Assembly: GCA_022340305.1 (NCBI GenBank)
Contig: JAJDOF010000108.1
Location: 1-64,000, forward strand
Direction of reading: 5' to 3'
Length of the DNA stretch: 64,000 nucleotides
From: Gammaproteobacteria bacterium
GTDB lineage: Bacteria; Pseudomonadota; Gammaproteobacteria; GCA-001735895
Notes under the pieces: model-generated
The model's database searches: none
What the model saw: the letters and a program-made list of their open reading frames with translations, nothing else
What the model was told of the DNA's origin: nothing
Shown here: positions 11,488-17,520 of the stretch, in pieces
Position numbering within the stretch: position 1 is the stretch's first letter
How the letters are laid out: every line of letters begins with the position of its first letter
Position numbers and translations under genes: made by a program

Positions 11488-11591
11488 TCGTCCATCCCGG
11501 ACATGGTCGGCACGATGTCGGCGGCAATGTTGACATGAAACTGTTGACGTTGAATGAGGGAATCGAATCAGCGAGATCATCGAAAACAAAA

Positions 11592-12200
11592 ATGTCAGAA
11601 CCGAATGAAGCGACACCATCGCCACGCCGTAATCCGTTAATCTGGATCGTGGTGATCGTCGTCGGCGTGATCCTGGCTATTTTTTTGAGTGGCGAGCGTG
11701 GCGAGGTACCGATCGCCGTGCCGAAAGCCAGTCCGGCGGTTGTTACCCTGAGCACGGATGAGGCAGCGTCGGATATTGTAGTCGGTACGATCGAACGCAG
11801 CCTGCTGGTACCGCCTGGTATGCGCGCGCGCCAGTATATCGAGCAGATGCGCGCCGCCGGTAAGCCCTATCCATTGTCACAGGCCTTTGAAAAAGCACAG
11901 CAATTCCGCACTGAAGGCAGCCTCGCGGACGCTCATTTATTGTTTTTCTTTGCTGCCCGTGAAAATCATTTGCCGGCGATCATGATGATGGGCGAAATGT
12001 CTGACCCGATACGGTTTCGTGCGCAGGATTCATTGCTTGATCAGGCCGATGCCATCCAGGCCTACAAGTGGTATAACAAGGCCGCCCAACTGGGGCAGCC
12101 GAGCGCTACCGAACGACTCGACGAACTCGGCCGCTGGGCGAGTGAAGCTGCTGCCACGGGCAATTCCGAAGCCCGGCAACTGCTACTTAACATTCAATAG
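11592..12200 (+). CDS. Membrane-anchored Sel1-like repeat protein
   Basis: About 202 residues: a short Pro/Arg-rich cytoplasmic N-terminus, one membrane helix ('LIWIVVIVVGVILAIFL'), then a predicted periplasmic helical domain ending in a Sel1/TPR-like repeat ('AIQAYKWYNKAAQLGQPSA'). Sel1 repeats usually serve as protein-binding scaffolds; no catalytic motif is seen. The ATG at 11592 gives a normal N-in anchor. An ATG at 11535 would add 19 residues; neither has a strong ribosome-binding site. The gene stops 8 bp before the vWA gene and is surely co-transcribed with it. A role as partner of the secreted vWA protein is inferred from position only. Confidence 0.7.
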   Translation: MSEPNEATPSPRRNPLIWIVVIVVGVILAIFLSGERGEVPIAVPKASPAVVTLSTDEAASDIVVGTIERSLLVPPGMRARQYIEQMRAAGKPYPLSQAFEKAQQFRTEGSLADAHLLFFFAARENHLPAIMMMGEMSDPIRFRAQDSLLDQADAIQAYKWYNKAAQLGQPSATERLDELGRWASEAAATGNSEARQLLLNIQ

Positions 12201-12208
12201 GTGACACG

Positions 12209-14206
12209 ATGCAGAGCAACACCAGCCGCGACCATTTCAGCCGCAATAATTCCAGGCGAATAAGCTCCAGCCTGCTGCTGATGTGTTTGCTGCTGGTGCA
12301 GACGACGAGCCTTTATGCCACCGCCAGGCCGCTACTGATGGAAGGCAAGAAGACACTGTATCAACGCGTCCTCAGTATCCCCGATGCGCGCCTTTATGAA
12401 ATCCCGGTTGGCTCGGCTACCTCCAGCGAAATCGTTCCGTTCAGTGTGCTCTACGTATACGAGAAAAGCACTGACTGGATCAAGGTAGGCTATGACAGTT
12501 TCGGCAATACAGCGGGATGGGTCGCCAGCGATAAGGCCATCGTCTGGAACCAGGCGTTGACCGTCTCCTTCAAGGATCCGCAGGATATTCAGCGGGTTAT
12601 GATGTTCGCCGAAAAGGATAAATTGCAGCAGCTGGTCGATGACTACGACACCGAGGGTTACCAGGCGCTTTACGATGCTATCGTCAACAATGAGATCCCG
12701 GACGACTCGCCGGTCATCGCGATTCAACCCGAGGCGCATCTCGATATCGGTGAAAGTTTTTACCTGGTGCCGATCAAGCAACACGAGGATGTGTTCCTCG
12801 GCAACGAACAGGCGCGCCTGCTCCAGATCGCCAGCGTGCCGCTCGACGATAGCTCATCTGAATCCAGCCCTGTCACCATGGCGGCAAGCAAACGCAGCTA
12901 TCGCAGCGGTATCCATTTTGTGATCGATTCAACCCAGTCGATGGAGCCCTATATCGCTCGCACCCGCGAAGCGGTCGCCCGGGTTTACTCGGCCATCGAA
13001 AAGCAGGGCCTGACTAACCAGGTCAGCTTTGGTCTGACCGCCTATCGCGATAACACGGCCGAGATACCGGAACTCGAGTACCTGACGCGTCATTACGTTA
13101 GCCTGCAGCAGGGCACCAACGTCGACCAGTTCTTCGAGCGGGTGAATTCGTTGAGTGCGGCGCAGGTTTCAAGCAGGGACTTCCGCGAGGATGCCTATGC
13201 GGGTATCAAGTCGGCTATCGAGGATACCGACTGGACCGATTTCGACGCACGTTACGTGGTGCTGATTACCGATGCCGGGCCGCGCGACAGTCATGATTCG
13301 CTGGGTGCGACCCGGCTTGGTGCCCAGGCATTGCGGCAGTTGGCATTTGATAAGGGCGTTTCGATCTGGGTGTTGCATTTGCGCACCCCGGAGGGCTCGG
13401 CAGATCACGAATCTGCCGAATCACTCTACAAGCAGTTGTCCTTCTTTCCCGGCATCGGAGATTTTTACTACGGAGTCAATCTCGGCGAAGTGGACGAGTT
13501 CGGTAACGTACTGGAGACGCTGGCCAGGCAGATTACCCAGCAGGTAATGGCGACTACCAATGGCCTGCCGCCGATACCGCTGCCACAACAGCCAGTTGCA
13601 GTTGCAGTTGCAGAGACGCCACTCGAACAACTCCAGGGTCGGGTCGACAAGCTGGGCAATGCGCTGCGCATGCGTTACCTGCAAAAGAAATCCGGGCAAC
13701 CCCCTCCGGCAGTATTTGACGCCTGGATGGTGGACCGTGACTTCAGGAATCCCGAGCGTTCGGCGGTCGATGTACGGGTGCTGCTGACGCGCGACCAGCT
13801 CAGCGATCTCAAGCAGGTTATGCAACAGGTTCTCGAACTCGCAGAGGAGGGTGTTCTCAGCCCGCAAAGCTTCATCGACGACCTGAAAAGCCTGGCGGCC
13901 ACGGTAAGCCGTGATCCATCGGCGGTAGGTAGCAGCACCTCGGAAGCGGGGACTAACCTTGCCGACATGGGATACATGCGTGAATACATCGAAGATTTGC
14001 CCTATACCGGTGAGGTCATGGGACTGACCCTCGAAACCTGGGAAGAGTGGTCGGCCAAGGTGCAGATCGAGTTCATGCACCGGCTCGAAAGCAAGATAAA
14101 TTATTACCAGGCTTTGCACGATCACACCGATCTGTGGGTGACTCCGGGAGGCGGTTCGGTTAACGGTAATTCGGTATTCCCCGTTGCCCTCGAACTGCTG
14201 CCCTGA
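12209..14206 (+). CDS. Secreted SH3/von Willebrand A protein resembling the PpkA C-terminal region
   Basis: A 665-residue protein with a long N-terminal signal segment (hydrophobic core 'SLLLMCLLLVQTTSLYA', residues about 22-37). A bacterial SH3-like region follows at about 45-110 ('VLYVYEKSTDWIKVGY', 'GWVASDKAI'), then a vWA domain from about 233. The metal-site motif is D-S-T-Q-S with Asp240, followed by 'LTAYRDN' and 'VVLITDAGPRDS'. The C-terminal about 200 residues ('VFDAWMVDRDFRNPERSAVD', 'SPQSFIDDLKSLAATVSRDP') look to me like the periplasmic half of PpkA, the type VI secretion kinase. No kinase domain is present. It is encoded directly upstream of a TagT/TagS-like transporter. The vWA call is firm; the PpkA relationship comes from recognition and needs a profile search. 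Confidence 0.8.
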   Translation: MQSNTSRDHFSRNNSRRISSSLLLMCLLLVQTTSLYATARPLLMEGKKTLYQRVLSIPDARLYEIPVGSATSSEIVPFSVLYVYEKSTDWIKVGYDSFGNTAGWVASDKAIVWNQALTVSFKDPQDIQRVMMFAEKDKLQQLVDDYDTEGYQALYDAIVNNEIPDDSPVIAIQPEAHLDIGESFYLVPIKQHEDVFLGNEQARLLQIASVPLDDSSSESSPVTMAASKRSYRSGIHFVIDSTQSMEPYIARTREAVARVYSAIEKQGLTNQVSFGLTAYRDNTAEIPELEYLTRHYVSLQQGTNVDQFFERVNSLSAAQVSSRDFREDAYAGIKSAIEDTDWTDFDARYVVLITDAGPRDSHDSLGATRLGAQALRQLAFDKGVSIWVLHLRTPEGSADHESAESLYKQLSFFPGIGDFYYGVNLGEVDEFGNVLETLARQITQQVMATTNGLPPIPLPQQPVAVAVAETPLEQLQGRVDKLGNALRMRYLQKKSGQPPPAVFDAWMVDRDFRNPERSAVDVRVLLTRDQLSDLKQVMQQVLELAEEGVLSPQSFIDDLKSLAATVSRDPSAVGSSTSEAGTNLADMGYMREYIEDLPYTGEVMGLTLETWEEWSAKVQIEFMHRLESKINYYQALHDHTDLWVTPGGGSVNGNSVFPVALELLP

Positions 14207-14211
14207 CGTCC

Positions 14212-14937
14212 GTGACGGTCGTCTACTCGCTGAAGAACGTCAGCAAGGAACGCCTCATTGACGGTGTCGGTTTCCGTCTGTTGGTGCCCAACATTCAAAT
14301 CCACGCCGAGGAAAATATTGCACTGATCGGGCACAGTGGCTGTGGCAAGAGTACGCTGCTGGACATGCTTGCGCTGATACTGCGCCCCGATAAATCGGAT
14401 AGTATGAATCTGCATCCGGTGCATGGGGATAGCCACGATGTCGCGCGGCTTTGGCAGGGCGATCGCTACAGTCAGTTATCGCAGATTCGCAAGCAGCACA
14501 TCGGTTACGTATTGCAATCCGGTGGCCTGTTGCCTTACCTCACGGTGCGCGAAAACATCGAGCTTCCGCGTCGACTGCTGGATCTGCCCGATGACGATTC
14601 GATCGACTCGATCTCCAAGGTGCTCGGAATCAGTCGTCAACTCGACAAGCTGCCGGGGCTATTGTCGGCTGGCGAACGCCAGCGCGCGGCCTTTGCGCGC
14701 GCGCTTTCGCACCGGCCGTCGATTTTGATTGCCGATGAGCCGACCGCGGCGCTTGACCCGATTACCGCGCACAAGATTATGGCGGTGGTAATGGAGGTTA
14801 TTCGTGGACTCAAAATCACTTTGATTACCGCTAGCCATGACTGGGCCCACGTCTACAAGATGGAGCTGCGTACCCTGAAGCAGGAAGCGAAAGCGCTCGA
14901 AGGCGGCAAGATCTACCAGTCCAGCTTCAGCGATTGA
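14212..14937 (+). CDS. ABC transporter ATP-binding protein, TagT/LolD-like
   Basis: A 241-residue ABC ATPase. Walker A is 'GHSGCGKST', the Q-loop region 'GYVLQSGGLLPYLTV', the signature 'LSAGERQR' (Ala in place of the usual Gly), Walker B 'ILIADEP', and the switch His is in 'TASHDW'. It belongs to the MacB/LolD/FtsE group that pairs with FtsX-fold permeases, often for mechanical work in the cell envelope rather than solute transport. The GTG start lies 5 bp after the vWA gene and the permease follows after 10 bp. In type VI loci the corresponding pair is TagT-TagS, which acts upstream of PpkA. Confidence 0.85.
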   Translation: MTVVYSLKNVSKERLIDGVGFRLLVPNIQIHAEENIALIGHSGCGKSTLLDMLALILRPDKSDSMNLHPVHGDSHDVARLWQGDRYSQLSQIRKQHIGYVLQSGGLLPYLTVRENIELPRRLLDLPDDDSIDSISKVLGISRQLDKLPGLLSAGERQRAAFARALSHRPSILIADEPTAALDPITAHKIMAVVMEVIRGLKITLITASHDWAHVYKMELRTLKQEAKALEGGKIYQSSFSD

Positions 14938-14947
14938 TGTCTCGATA

Positions 14948-16159
14948 ATGTCCCAGTTCAACAATATCGTTCGCCTGAGTTTTCGTGATTACAGCCACGA
15001 GTGGCGCATGTCGGGTTGTTTTATCCTGGCACTGGCATCGGTGCTGGCGCCAATGATGATACTGTTCGGGCTGAAATTCGGGATCGTAACCACGATGGTC
15101 AGCGGGTTGATTGAAAATCCGGCAAATCGCGAGATCAGCCCGATCGGCAGCGGGCGCTATGATGACACCTGGATTGACGCGCTGCGCGACCGTCGCGATG
15201 TGGCATTCATCATTCCAAGAACCCGTGCGCTGGCCGCGACCATCCAGCTCAAGAGTTCGACGGCTAAGCGTATCCTGTCTACCGAATTACTCGCTACCGC
15301 GCCAGGGGATCCATTACTTGCCGGGGTTAGCCGCTTGCCGAAGAATTATTTCGAAGTCATTCTCAGTCACAGCGCCGCCGATAAACTCAATGCCAAGGTC
15401 GGTGATGAAATCGATGCCAGCCTGGCGCGCCAGTTCAAAGGTAAACGCGAGCGCGTACATTTGCCCCTGGAAGTCATCGGCGTCACCGGCGCCCAGGTCA
15501 TTTCGCGCAGCGTCGCATTTGTGAATCTCAAATTACTGCTTGCCAGTGAGCAGTTCAAGGACGGGCGTATGGTGGTAGACCTGGGATGGCGGGGTAATAT
15601 CGGCACCCCGGATGGGCGGGTATATCCTTCGTTTCGGCTCTACGCGAAGTCCATTTACGATGTTGCCGGGCTTGTTAGCGTGCTTGAAGAACAAGGTAGC
15701 AACGTGAAGGCAAACGTCGCCGAAATTTCGACGGTGCAGTCGATCGACGATAATCTCACCGTCATTTTCTGGATTATCGCTTTTGTCGGCGCCACAGGCT
15801 TTGCCTTTTCGCTGGGGGCAAGCCTTTGGGCCAACGTAGATCGCAAACGCAAGGAATTGAGCGTATTGCGCCTGGTAGGTTTCAAGAGCGCACGCATCGT
15901 CTTGTTCCCGGTACTGCAGTCCTGTTATACAGCGGTTCTCGGCTGGTTACTCGCGGTGCTGGTTTACCTCGCTTTCGAATATCTGCTCAACACCTTCCTG
16001 GCACCGCGCCTCAATCTCGACCGTACCTTGTGCTTTTTACTGATCGAGCACTTTCTGTGGGCGCTGGCGTTGACTTTCGTGATTGCGATTTCGGCCGCAA
16101 TTCTCGGCGGCTTACGAGCCGCCGGAATTGAACCATCCGACGGCCTGCGGGATATTTAA
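14948..16159 (+). CDS. FtsX-fold ABC permease, TagS/MacB-like
   Basis: A 403-residue membrane protein with one N-terminal helix (about residues 22-45), a large extracytoplasmic domain (about 50-270) and three C-terminal helices ('IFWIIAFVGATGFAFSLGAS', 'VLGWLLAVLVYLAFEYLL', 'WALALTFVIAISAAILGGL'). The last part ends in 'AAGIEPSDGLRDI', the typical FtsX-family close. The topology matches MacB, LolC/E and TagS permeases. It completes the transporter encoded by the preceding gene. The stop is followed after 4 bp by a GacA-type box. Confidence 0.85.
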   Translation: MSQFNNIVRLSFRDYSHEWRMSGCFILALASVLAPMMILFGLKFGIVTTMVSGLIENPANREISPIGSGRYDDTWIDALRDRRDVAFIIPRTRALAATIQLKSSTAKRILSTELLATAPGDPLLAGVSRLPKNYFEVILSHSAADKLNAKVGDEIDASLARQFKGKRERVHLPLEVIGVTGAQVISRSVAFVNLKLLLASEQFKDGRMVVDLGWRGNIGTPDGRVYPSFRLYAKSIYDVAGLVSVLEEQGSNVKANVAEISTVQSIDDNLTVIFWIIAFVGATGFAFSLGASLWANVDRKRKELSVLRLVGFKSARIVLFPVLQSCYTAVLGWLLAVLVYLAFEYLLNTFLAPRLNLDRTLCFLLIEHFLWALALTFVIAISAAILGGLRAAGIEPSDGLRDI

Positions 16160-16163
16160 CCAC

Positions 16164-16181
16164 TGTAAGTCTTTTCCTACA
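16164..16181 (+). promoter_or_regulatory. Candidate GacA-binding upstream activating sequence
   Basis: The sequence TGTAAG-N6-CCTACA matches the established GacA (UvrY/LetA-type) activating box TGTAAGN6CTTACA at 11 of 12 defined positions, with correct spacing. It lies about 85 bp upstream of the inferred start of the small RNA at 16259-16400. Such boxes are the hallmark of rsmX/rsmY/rsmZ-type promoters. No good -35 is seen, only a weak -10 (TACCAT, 16247-16252), as expected for an activator-dependent promoter. Confidence 0.7.
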
Positions 16182-16258
16182 AAGAATAGTGCTGCAGCCT
16201 ACATTAAAAAAAGCCTTGCCGAGTAGGGGAGGCCCGCTGCTACGCATACCATAGAAAT

Positions 16259-16400
16259 CGTGTGCGGATGGATTCGCAACACGGAGATGTAACCTGGACT
16301 CATTCCAGCGCATCGCAGGCAGGATGCCTTGCAGCAAGCTGTGAATGATCAAGCAGGTAATCTTCGGGTCCTCTTACCTTCGGGTTTGAGGACCCTTTTT
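16259..16400 (+). ncRNA. Candidate RsmY/RsmZ/CsrB-type regulatory small RNA
   Basis: An approximately 140-nt transcript is inferred between a GacA-type box and a strong terminator. Three consecutive hairpins carry GGA motifs, the core of CsrA/RsmA sites. The first is an 8-bp stem (16259-16266 with 16275-16283, one bulged A) and loop GATGGATT. The second is a 4-bp stem (16294-16297 with 16305-16308), GGA at its loop edge. The third is a 6-bp stem (16315-16320 with 16326-16332, one bulged T) and loop AGGAT inside a CAGGATG motif. Further GGA motifs occur at 16266, 16283 and in the terminator stem (16390). Family members titrate CsrA/RsmA and switch motility, biofilm and secretion programmes. 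The 5' end is approximate. It does not match 4.5S RNA and I see no 6S-like fold. Confidence 0.68.
16366..16400 (+). terminator. Strong rho-independent terminator of the small RNA
   Basis: GGGTCCTC (16366-16373) pairs perfectly with GAGGACCC (16388-16395) over a 14-base loop containing CTTCGG, and is followed directly by TTTTT (16396-16400). It would end the small RNA and any read-through from the ABC permease gene, separating this block from holA. Confidence 0.9.
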
Positions 16401-16506
16401 ATTGGCAGCGTTTTATGGCATTTACGCTCGCCAGCCAAAAGGCTGCATTGCCAATAATGACGCGCTGTAATCGCTTGTCGTCAAGACTGTGGTAGCATTG
16501 CCGCCC

Positions 16507-17520
16507 ATGCAGGGATCTCAGATCACACAACAGTTAAAGCCGGTTTATTTGCTGGCAAGTGCCGAGCTGTTATTAACGCGGGACTGGCTTGATGACGCCA
16601 GAACTGCGCTACGTGAAGCCGGTTTCGAAGATATTTTGAACCTGCAAAGCGATATCGGATTCGACTGGCAATCGTTGTTGCAGGAGGGTGATATGTTGTC
16701 ACTGTTCTCGAGCTGCAAATGCCGTATCGTGACCTTGCCGAGCGGCAAACCCGGCCAGTTGGGTAGCAAGGTTATTCAGGAATTGTGTGAAAATCCGGGT
16801 GAGGGTAATGTCTATATATTCGTCACCCCGCCACTCGATGGGCAAACTCGCAAAACCAGTTGGTGCAAGGCGATACAGGCGGCTGGCGCAATCGTCGAAA
16901 TCAAGCCGGTTTACGATAATCAGCTGGCCGAGTGGTTACGCCAGCGAGCGCAGTACAAGGGTTTCAGTATCGATAACCAGGCGGCTCAGTTTCTTGCCGT
17001 CTGCACCGAGGGTAACCTGTTGGCGGCGGACCAGGAACTGGAAAAGTTGTCGATTCGTTTTGCGGGCCAGGACAGCATCGATTTTGAAACCATCCAGACT
17101 TCGGTCGCGCAGTCGGCACGTTATAGTCATTTTCTGCTGGTTGACGCCTGCCTTGGCGGCCAGAGCCGTCGTGCCCTGCGTATATTGAAAAGCCTGCAGG
17201 CCGAGGGCTATGCCAGTACCCAGCTACGCTGGGCGCTGCAGAATTCGCTGCAACAACTGGATCGACTCAAGCTGGCAGAATCGGGTGGAACCCTCGGTGA
17301 TCGCAGCTGGCAGGAACTGCGCATCTGGCAAAGCAAGCAACGGCTTTATCGGCTGGCTTTATCGCGCCTGAGCGGCGCGCAGATTGAGCGTTTCCTGCAA
17401 AGCTGTGCTACATTAGATCGCCTTGGCAAGGGGCAACAGGACAGCGATTTTCCCGACCAGGAATGGTTCGAGATCAAATCGCTGGTGATCGAGTTCAGTG
17501 GTGCCAATTCAGTGGTGTAA
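16507..17520 (+). CDS. holA: DNA polymerase III subunit delta
   Basis: A 337-residue clamp-loader subunit that opens the beta sliding clamp. The N-terminus 'QQLKPVYLLASAELLLTRDW' matches the HolA pattern in which a degenerate P-loop domain begins with 'YLL..D'; the C-terminal helical collar domain follows. The ATG at 16507 was preferred to a GTG at 16489 because it gives the usual N-terminus. The gene follows the small-RNA terminator by about 100 bp; that gap contains an inverted repeat ATTGGCA/TGCCAAT at 16401-16456 of unknown meaning. proA starts 12 bp after the stop. Confidence 0.92.
   Translation: MQGSQITQQLKPVYLLASAELLLTRDWLDDARTALREAGFEDILNLQSDIGFDWQSLLQEGDMLSLFSSCKCRIVTLPSGKPGQLGSKVIQELCENPGEGNVYIFVTPPLDGQTRKTSWCKAIQAAGAIVEIKPVYDNQLAEWLRQRAQYKGFSIDNQAAQFLAVCTEGNLLAADQELEKLSIRFAGQDSIDFETIQTSVAQSARYSHFLLVDACLGGQSRRALRILKSLQAEGYASTQLRWALQNSLQQLDRLKLAESGGTLGDRSWQELRIWQSKQRLYRLALSRLSGAQIERFLQSCATLDRLGKGQQDSDFPDQEWFEIKSLVIEFSGANSVV

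Follow-up and report, generated by a model that had tools for sequence, protein, structure and literature searches.

A candidate RsmX/Y/Z-CsrB-type small RNA upstream of holA in an uncultured gammaproteobacterial family, and a second RNA with a matching promoter layout

The window analyzed here, a 64-kb stretch of gammaproteobacterial DNA, holds an intergenic region between a gene for an FtsX-like permease (14948-16159, + strand; Pfam PF02687) and holA, which encodes DNA polymerase III delta (16489-17520, + strand; Pfam PF14840; the start is 16489 or the ATG at 16507). Does this region contain a small RNA gene of its own, and could its product be an antagonist of CsrA? A sequence-only reading had listed a GacA box with 11 of 12 matches at 16164-16181 and a perfect 8-bp hairpin followed by T5. 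Both are present, the former with one mismatch and the latter ending at 16400, and the segment 16258-16400 very probably encodes a small RNA of the RsmX/Y/Z-CsrB type, a putative CsrA antagonist. The upstream operon, which the sequence-only reading had labeled envelope-signalling, encodes a VWA-domain protein, an ABC ATPase and the FtsX-like permease (by Pfam). The permease is the upstream neighbor in homologous loci too, and holA lies downstream in 24/28 of these, the Olavius algarvensis Gamma 3 symbiont being an exception. The operon (11535-16159 of the window) also encodes a 221-amino-acid protein with no Pfam match, and the whole of it is an insertion separating lptE from holA. The permease has distant relatives in Thiodiazotropha, tubeworm symbionts, Chromatium and some Desulfobulbus-type bacteria.

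The RNA is approximately 140 nt long and lies on the + strand. Its 5′ end was placed near 16258-16260, 3′ of a weak -10 element, from that element and the conserved block, and its 3′ end from the Rho-independent terminator (16366-16400, + strand). The terminator arms, GGGTCCTC (16366-16373) and GAGGACCC (16388-16395), pair perfectly over 8 bp, enclose an inner ACC-UUCG-GGU stem and are followed by T5 at 16396-16400; across 30 homologues, 9 of the 11 terminator pairs have changed on both sides. The free fold of the RNA is more stable than 200/200 dinucleotide shuffles (z -5.4), and a covariance model of the family, R1, matches the window copy at 16258-16399 with 125.4 bits. A coding reading was rejected: no + strand ORF of at least 80 amino acids was found within the RNA, and the lengths of homologues differ by non-multiples of three.

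By blastn the RNA region was found in 17/95 sampled genomes, all from one genus, and these 17 sequences (alignment A3) were used to build R1. The model finds matches in 28/41 genomes of the family, with all three genera represented, and none in the other 13, some of which are fairly complete. Most named records with the RNA are uncultured marine Gammaproteobacteria (“marine” being judged from isolate names and the named symbiont), and the Olavius algarvensis Gamma 3 symbiont belongs to the family. Across the class-wide sample R1 detected no such RNA beyond family members, save one false match: L059, in another family, was rejected as it overlies the 3′ end of a reading frame and a terminator. 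On the named permease loci of Thiodiazotropha, tubeworm symbionts and Chromatium the model gave no convincing match. In isolate Cli_6 (L094:3217-3330) a remnant of the box remains 3′ of the permease while the RNA and terminator are gone, an apparent natural deletion.

The leader (16259-16365) contains GGA at 16266, 16270, 16283, 16296 and 16322. In the predicted free fold those at 16270, in an AUGGAU loop, and 16322, in CAGGAUG, are fully unpaired, and the other three are partly or wholly paired. Hairpin 1 (16259-16283) carries the AUGGAU loop with the unpaired GGA 16270-16272, which is kept in 29/30 homologues; all four of its model pairs have changed on both sides and 90% of cells are paired. 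It is followed by a linker, GGAGAUG (16283-16289), with GGA in 30/30 homologues, and by helix 2 (16286-16314, from a span-limited fold), a GAUGU...GCAUC-type helix around a small UGGA...UCCA hairpin, in which 96.6% of cells are paired and four of five pairs show double changes. Hairpin 3, AGGC-AGGAU-GCCU (16317-16329), presents the CsrB-like CAGGAUG (GGA 16322-16324), with 98.3% of cells paired and GGA in 28/30 homologues. Hairpin 4, GC-AGCAA-GC (16331-16339), has lost its GGA: relatives have CAGGA(A/U/C)G here, and the window copy is the sole exception among the 30 homologues (29/30). A fifth site, GUGAAUGAUCAAGC (16341-16354), is likewise degenerate in the window copy, which lacks the GGA found in 23/30 homologues; many relatives have GCUGGAUGAAAUAAGC. 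The window copy has therefore mutated two conserved GGA positions (loop 4 and site 5), and two sites are left that are predicted to be fully unpaired. The GGA hairpins that had been read from the sequence alone are real, but instead of three GGA-loop hairpins at 16259-16332 there are about four helices ahead of the terminator.

How strongly is this structure maintained? With the 30 homologues placed on the model, 95.7% of cells are paired; the fitting of this alignment to the structure favors pairing, but slid controls drop to 28-49%. Changes on both sides are seen at 19/26 pairs, a result reached by 0/500 shuffles. While the helices covary, four positions keep GGA in 28-30 of the 30 sequences. 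Outside the terminator, GGA occurs on average 6.2 times against 3.1 in dinucleotide shuffles, and unpaired GGA 3.7 times against 1.6. Loops 3 and 4 have the form CAGGA(U/A/C)G across homologues, which is the repeat element of CsrB (PMC7652899); in SELEX, CsrA selected the site RUACARGGAUGU, its GGA lying in a loop (PMC7652899). Several conserved GGA motifs are found in hairpin loops or single strands, fewer in the window copy than in its relatives.

An antagonist of this kind presupposes its partners, and a search of the genome for csrA, gacA/uvrY and gacS/barA, which the sequence-only reading had proposed, recovered all three, the last two below their NCBIfam cut-offs. The gene for CsrA (PF02599, 90.6 bits) follows that of a lysC-like aspartokinase; the protein differs from E. 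coli CsrA at few residues over positions 1-57, where it is near-identical to solved CsrA chains, and its RNA-binding core is intact by sequence. Two genes before uvrC lies a response regulator with 50% identity to UvrY (the query being an approximate UvrY sequence). Its best family is UvrY/SirA/GacA, scoring 260 bits to the runner-up's 147 and falling below the NCBIfam cut-off of 280. A hybrid kinase of 914 amino acids with HAMP-HisKA-HATPase-REC-Hpt architecture and a weak sCache_4 match adjoins a cysM-like gene, and its best family is BarA (531 bits, under the NCBIfam cut-off of 890). Judged by best family, the regulator near uvrC is the likely GacA orthologue and the cysM-adjacent kinase is GacS/BarA-like.

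Upstream of the RNA, TGTAAGTCTTTTCCTACA (16164-16181, + strand) has one mismatch to TGTAAGN6CTTACA, and its assignment as a candidate GacA/UvrY-type box draws on similarity to the published consensus. One-mismatch boxes are expected by chance 0.04 times in the 64-kb window. By itself the box is not strong evidence: such boxes are about as frequent in a reversed control, the genome-wide count (3 vs. 2 in the control) not being above chance. The exact degenerate form TGTARGN6CYTACA is found at only two sites in the 4.35-Mb genome and at none in the control. One site is the box at 16164-16181; the other (G000:C139:4131-4148) heads a second RNA on the minus strand. Since this second RNA, with its CsrA-site repeats, was found by the box search alone, it provides an independent test of the interpretation.

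The second RNA (L058:1272-1518, equivalent to G000:C139:3902-4148, minus strand) lies between TtcA-like (ttcA) and prolyl-aminopeptidase-like genes, both named by inspection. Its repeats are of the AGGGA/AAGGA form, GCGC-AGGGAU-GCGC among them; it has a terminator and is conserved in 22/41 family genomes by blastn and 25/41 by its own model, R2. An expanded version (L074; G016:C82, minus strand) reaches 268 nt with 14 GGA, a size and repeat number like those of CsrB. Of the weak class-wide matches to R2, three (L178, L179 and L180) were rejected because they look like terminator matches. Another of them, in a different family (L177:1501-1626, genome G402), looks like a real Csr-type RNA that lacks annotation: CAAGGAUG/CAGGAUG recurs in it, a terminator is present, and it gave no Rfam match at E 0.1.

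Near its 3′ end the second RNA has a nearly invariant UCUC-UCCUC-GAGA hairpin (L060 and relatives; alignment A6, columns 110-122), the loop of which resembles an anti-Shine-Dalgarno sequence and could pair with Shine-Dalgarno sequences. Non-GGA stretches are also conserved in the first RNA, e.g., GCAGGUAAUC near its 3′ end. Is the first RNA instead a GacA-activated sRNA of the Hfq- or ProQ-type, which acts mainly by base-pairing with mRNAs and in which GGA is incidental? This is very unlikely, as GGA is kept while stems and flanks vary, the loops are of the CsrB-type CAGGA(U/A/C)G, and the two RNAs, despite their common promoter layout, have little in common except GGA repeats. A combined scheme, with two unrelated-looking families of CsrA-sponge RNAs under one GacA promoter layout and a dual function for the ttcA-side RNA (CsrA titration plus pairing of its UCCUC hairpin with Shine-Dalgarno/GGA sequences), is less improbable, although we would still bet against it. 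Both RNAs are best read as CsrA antagonists of the RsmX/Y/Z-CsrB type, with every defining feature that can be computed from sequence present.

The promoter layout also bears on whether the first RNA is an independent gene. In the window the box begins only ~4-5 nt past the permease stop codon, and the terminator would end the operon as well, so the whole element might belong to the VWA-ABC-permease operon as its structured 3′ UTR and terminator. Among homologues, however, a box with no more than one mismatch, mostly in the form TGTAGGN6CCTACA, lies 92-95 nt 5′ of the first model position of the RNA in 25/28 cases, while the gap between permease stop and box ranges from 5 to 162 nt. The box of the unlinked second RNA is spaced equally, 94-95 nt 5′ of that RNA. 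Profiles of 25 promoters of the first RNA and 17 of the second reveal a second half-site at a fixed offset 3′ of the palindrome, CCTACA in the window (16198-16203, + strand), with consensus cTACA for the first RNA and TGACA for the second. Between box and RNA sits the weak -10 element TACCAT (16247-16252, + strand), a conserved element that is mostly TATAAT in relatives; a sigma-70 scan found no full promoter and no recognizable -35 consensus. A box and -10 at fixed distance to the RNA rather than to the permease, in a layout common to an unlinked RNA, make the 3′ UTR explanation still more improbable than base-pairing. A chance palindrome and hairpins between two genes might be suggested by the background frequency of one-mismatch boxes and the silence of Rfam, and this is refuted, to the point of a negligible probability, by conservation in 28/41 genomes, covariation and fixed spacing. 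The box, GGA loops and terminator, which it had been proposed to look for in relatives, are conserved there. Of the refuting outcomes named in the sequence-only reading, none that sequence data can decide occurred.

From the computed conservation, covariation, box position, GGA retention and the finding of csrA, gacA and a gacS-like gene we infer transcription, activation by GacA, and binding and sequestration of CsrA. The GacS/BarA-like hybrid kinase would activate GacA by phosphorylation, and phosphorylated GacA would bind the palindrome at 16164-16181, probably together with the half-site at 16198-16203. Bound GacA would turn on the promoter with its -10 at 16247-16252, and transcription would yield an RNA of ~140 nt that stops at the terminator. 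The GGA sites of this RNA, located in hairpin loops and a linker, would bind CsrA dimers and draw them off target mRNAs, with the second RNA (ttcA/prolyl-aminopeptidase-like locus) predicted to act in parallel.

These RNAs are candidate CsrA antagonists for an uncultured marine gammaproteobacterial family with the Olavius algarvensis Gamma 3 symbiont among its members, and they open the Gac-Csr switch of these bacteria and symbionts to testing. The mechanism itself is already known; what is new is two RNA families outside Rfam, with alignments and models. Scanning for the variant box TGTARGN6CYTACA together with GGA repeats picks up rapidly diverging Csr RNAs that escape the Rfam models.

How do these RNAs compare with known systems? 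A search of the window and the second locus against Rfam release 15, at E up to 10, gave chance matches only, with no CsrB, CsrC, RsmX/Y/Z or TwoAYGGAY, whereas E. coli csrB as a positive control scored 380 bits with the same tool, and so neither RNA belongs to an existing Rfam family. The earlier guess that covariance models would miss the RNA was right. R1 itself matches E. coli csrB weakly (13.9 bits, E 0.011). The Rfam family TwoAYGGAY shares a hairpin with AUGGAU in the loop, although cmscan finds no match to it even at E up to 10. With the enterobacterial CsrB/CsrC the present RNA shares CAGGA(U/A/C)G in hairpin loops and a UvrY box with an extra half-site: in E. coli csrB a partial repeat, TGTAGGAGA, comes after the 18-nt UvrY palindrome, and in csrC a half-site lies upstream (PMC4682653). 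The present RNA is, however, shorter with fewer sites, and its box lies ~94 nt upstream whereas that of E. coli csrB is centered near -183. Compared with RsmX, RsmY and RsmZ of Pseudomonas, the GacA-dependent antagonists of RsmA/RsmE, it differs in matching none of their Rfam models, in gene neighborhood and in box form (TGTAGGN6CCTACA in most relatives vs. TGTAAGN6CTTACA in Pseudomonas), yet it shares with them the palindromic GacA box upstream, a length of ~100-150 nt, GGA in hairpin loops, a Rho-independent terminator and a host with gacS-gacA-csrA.
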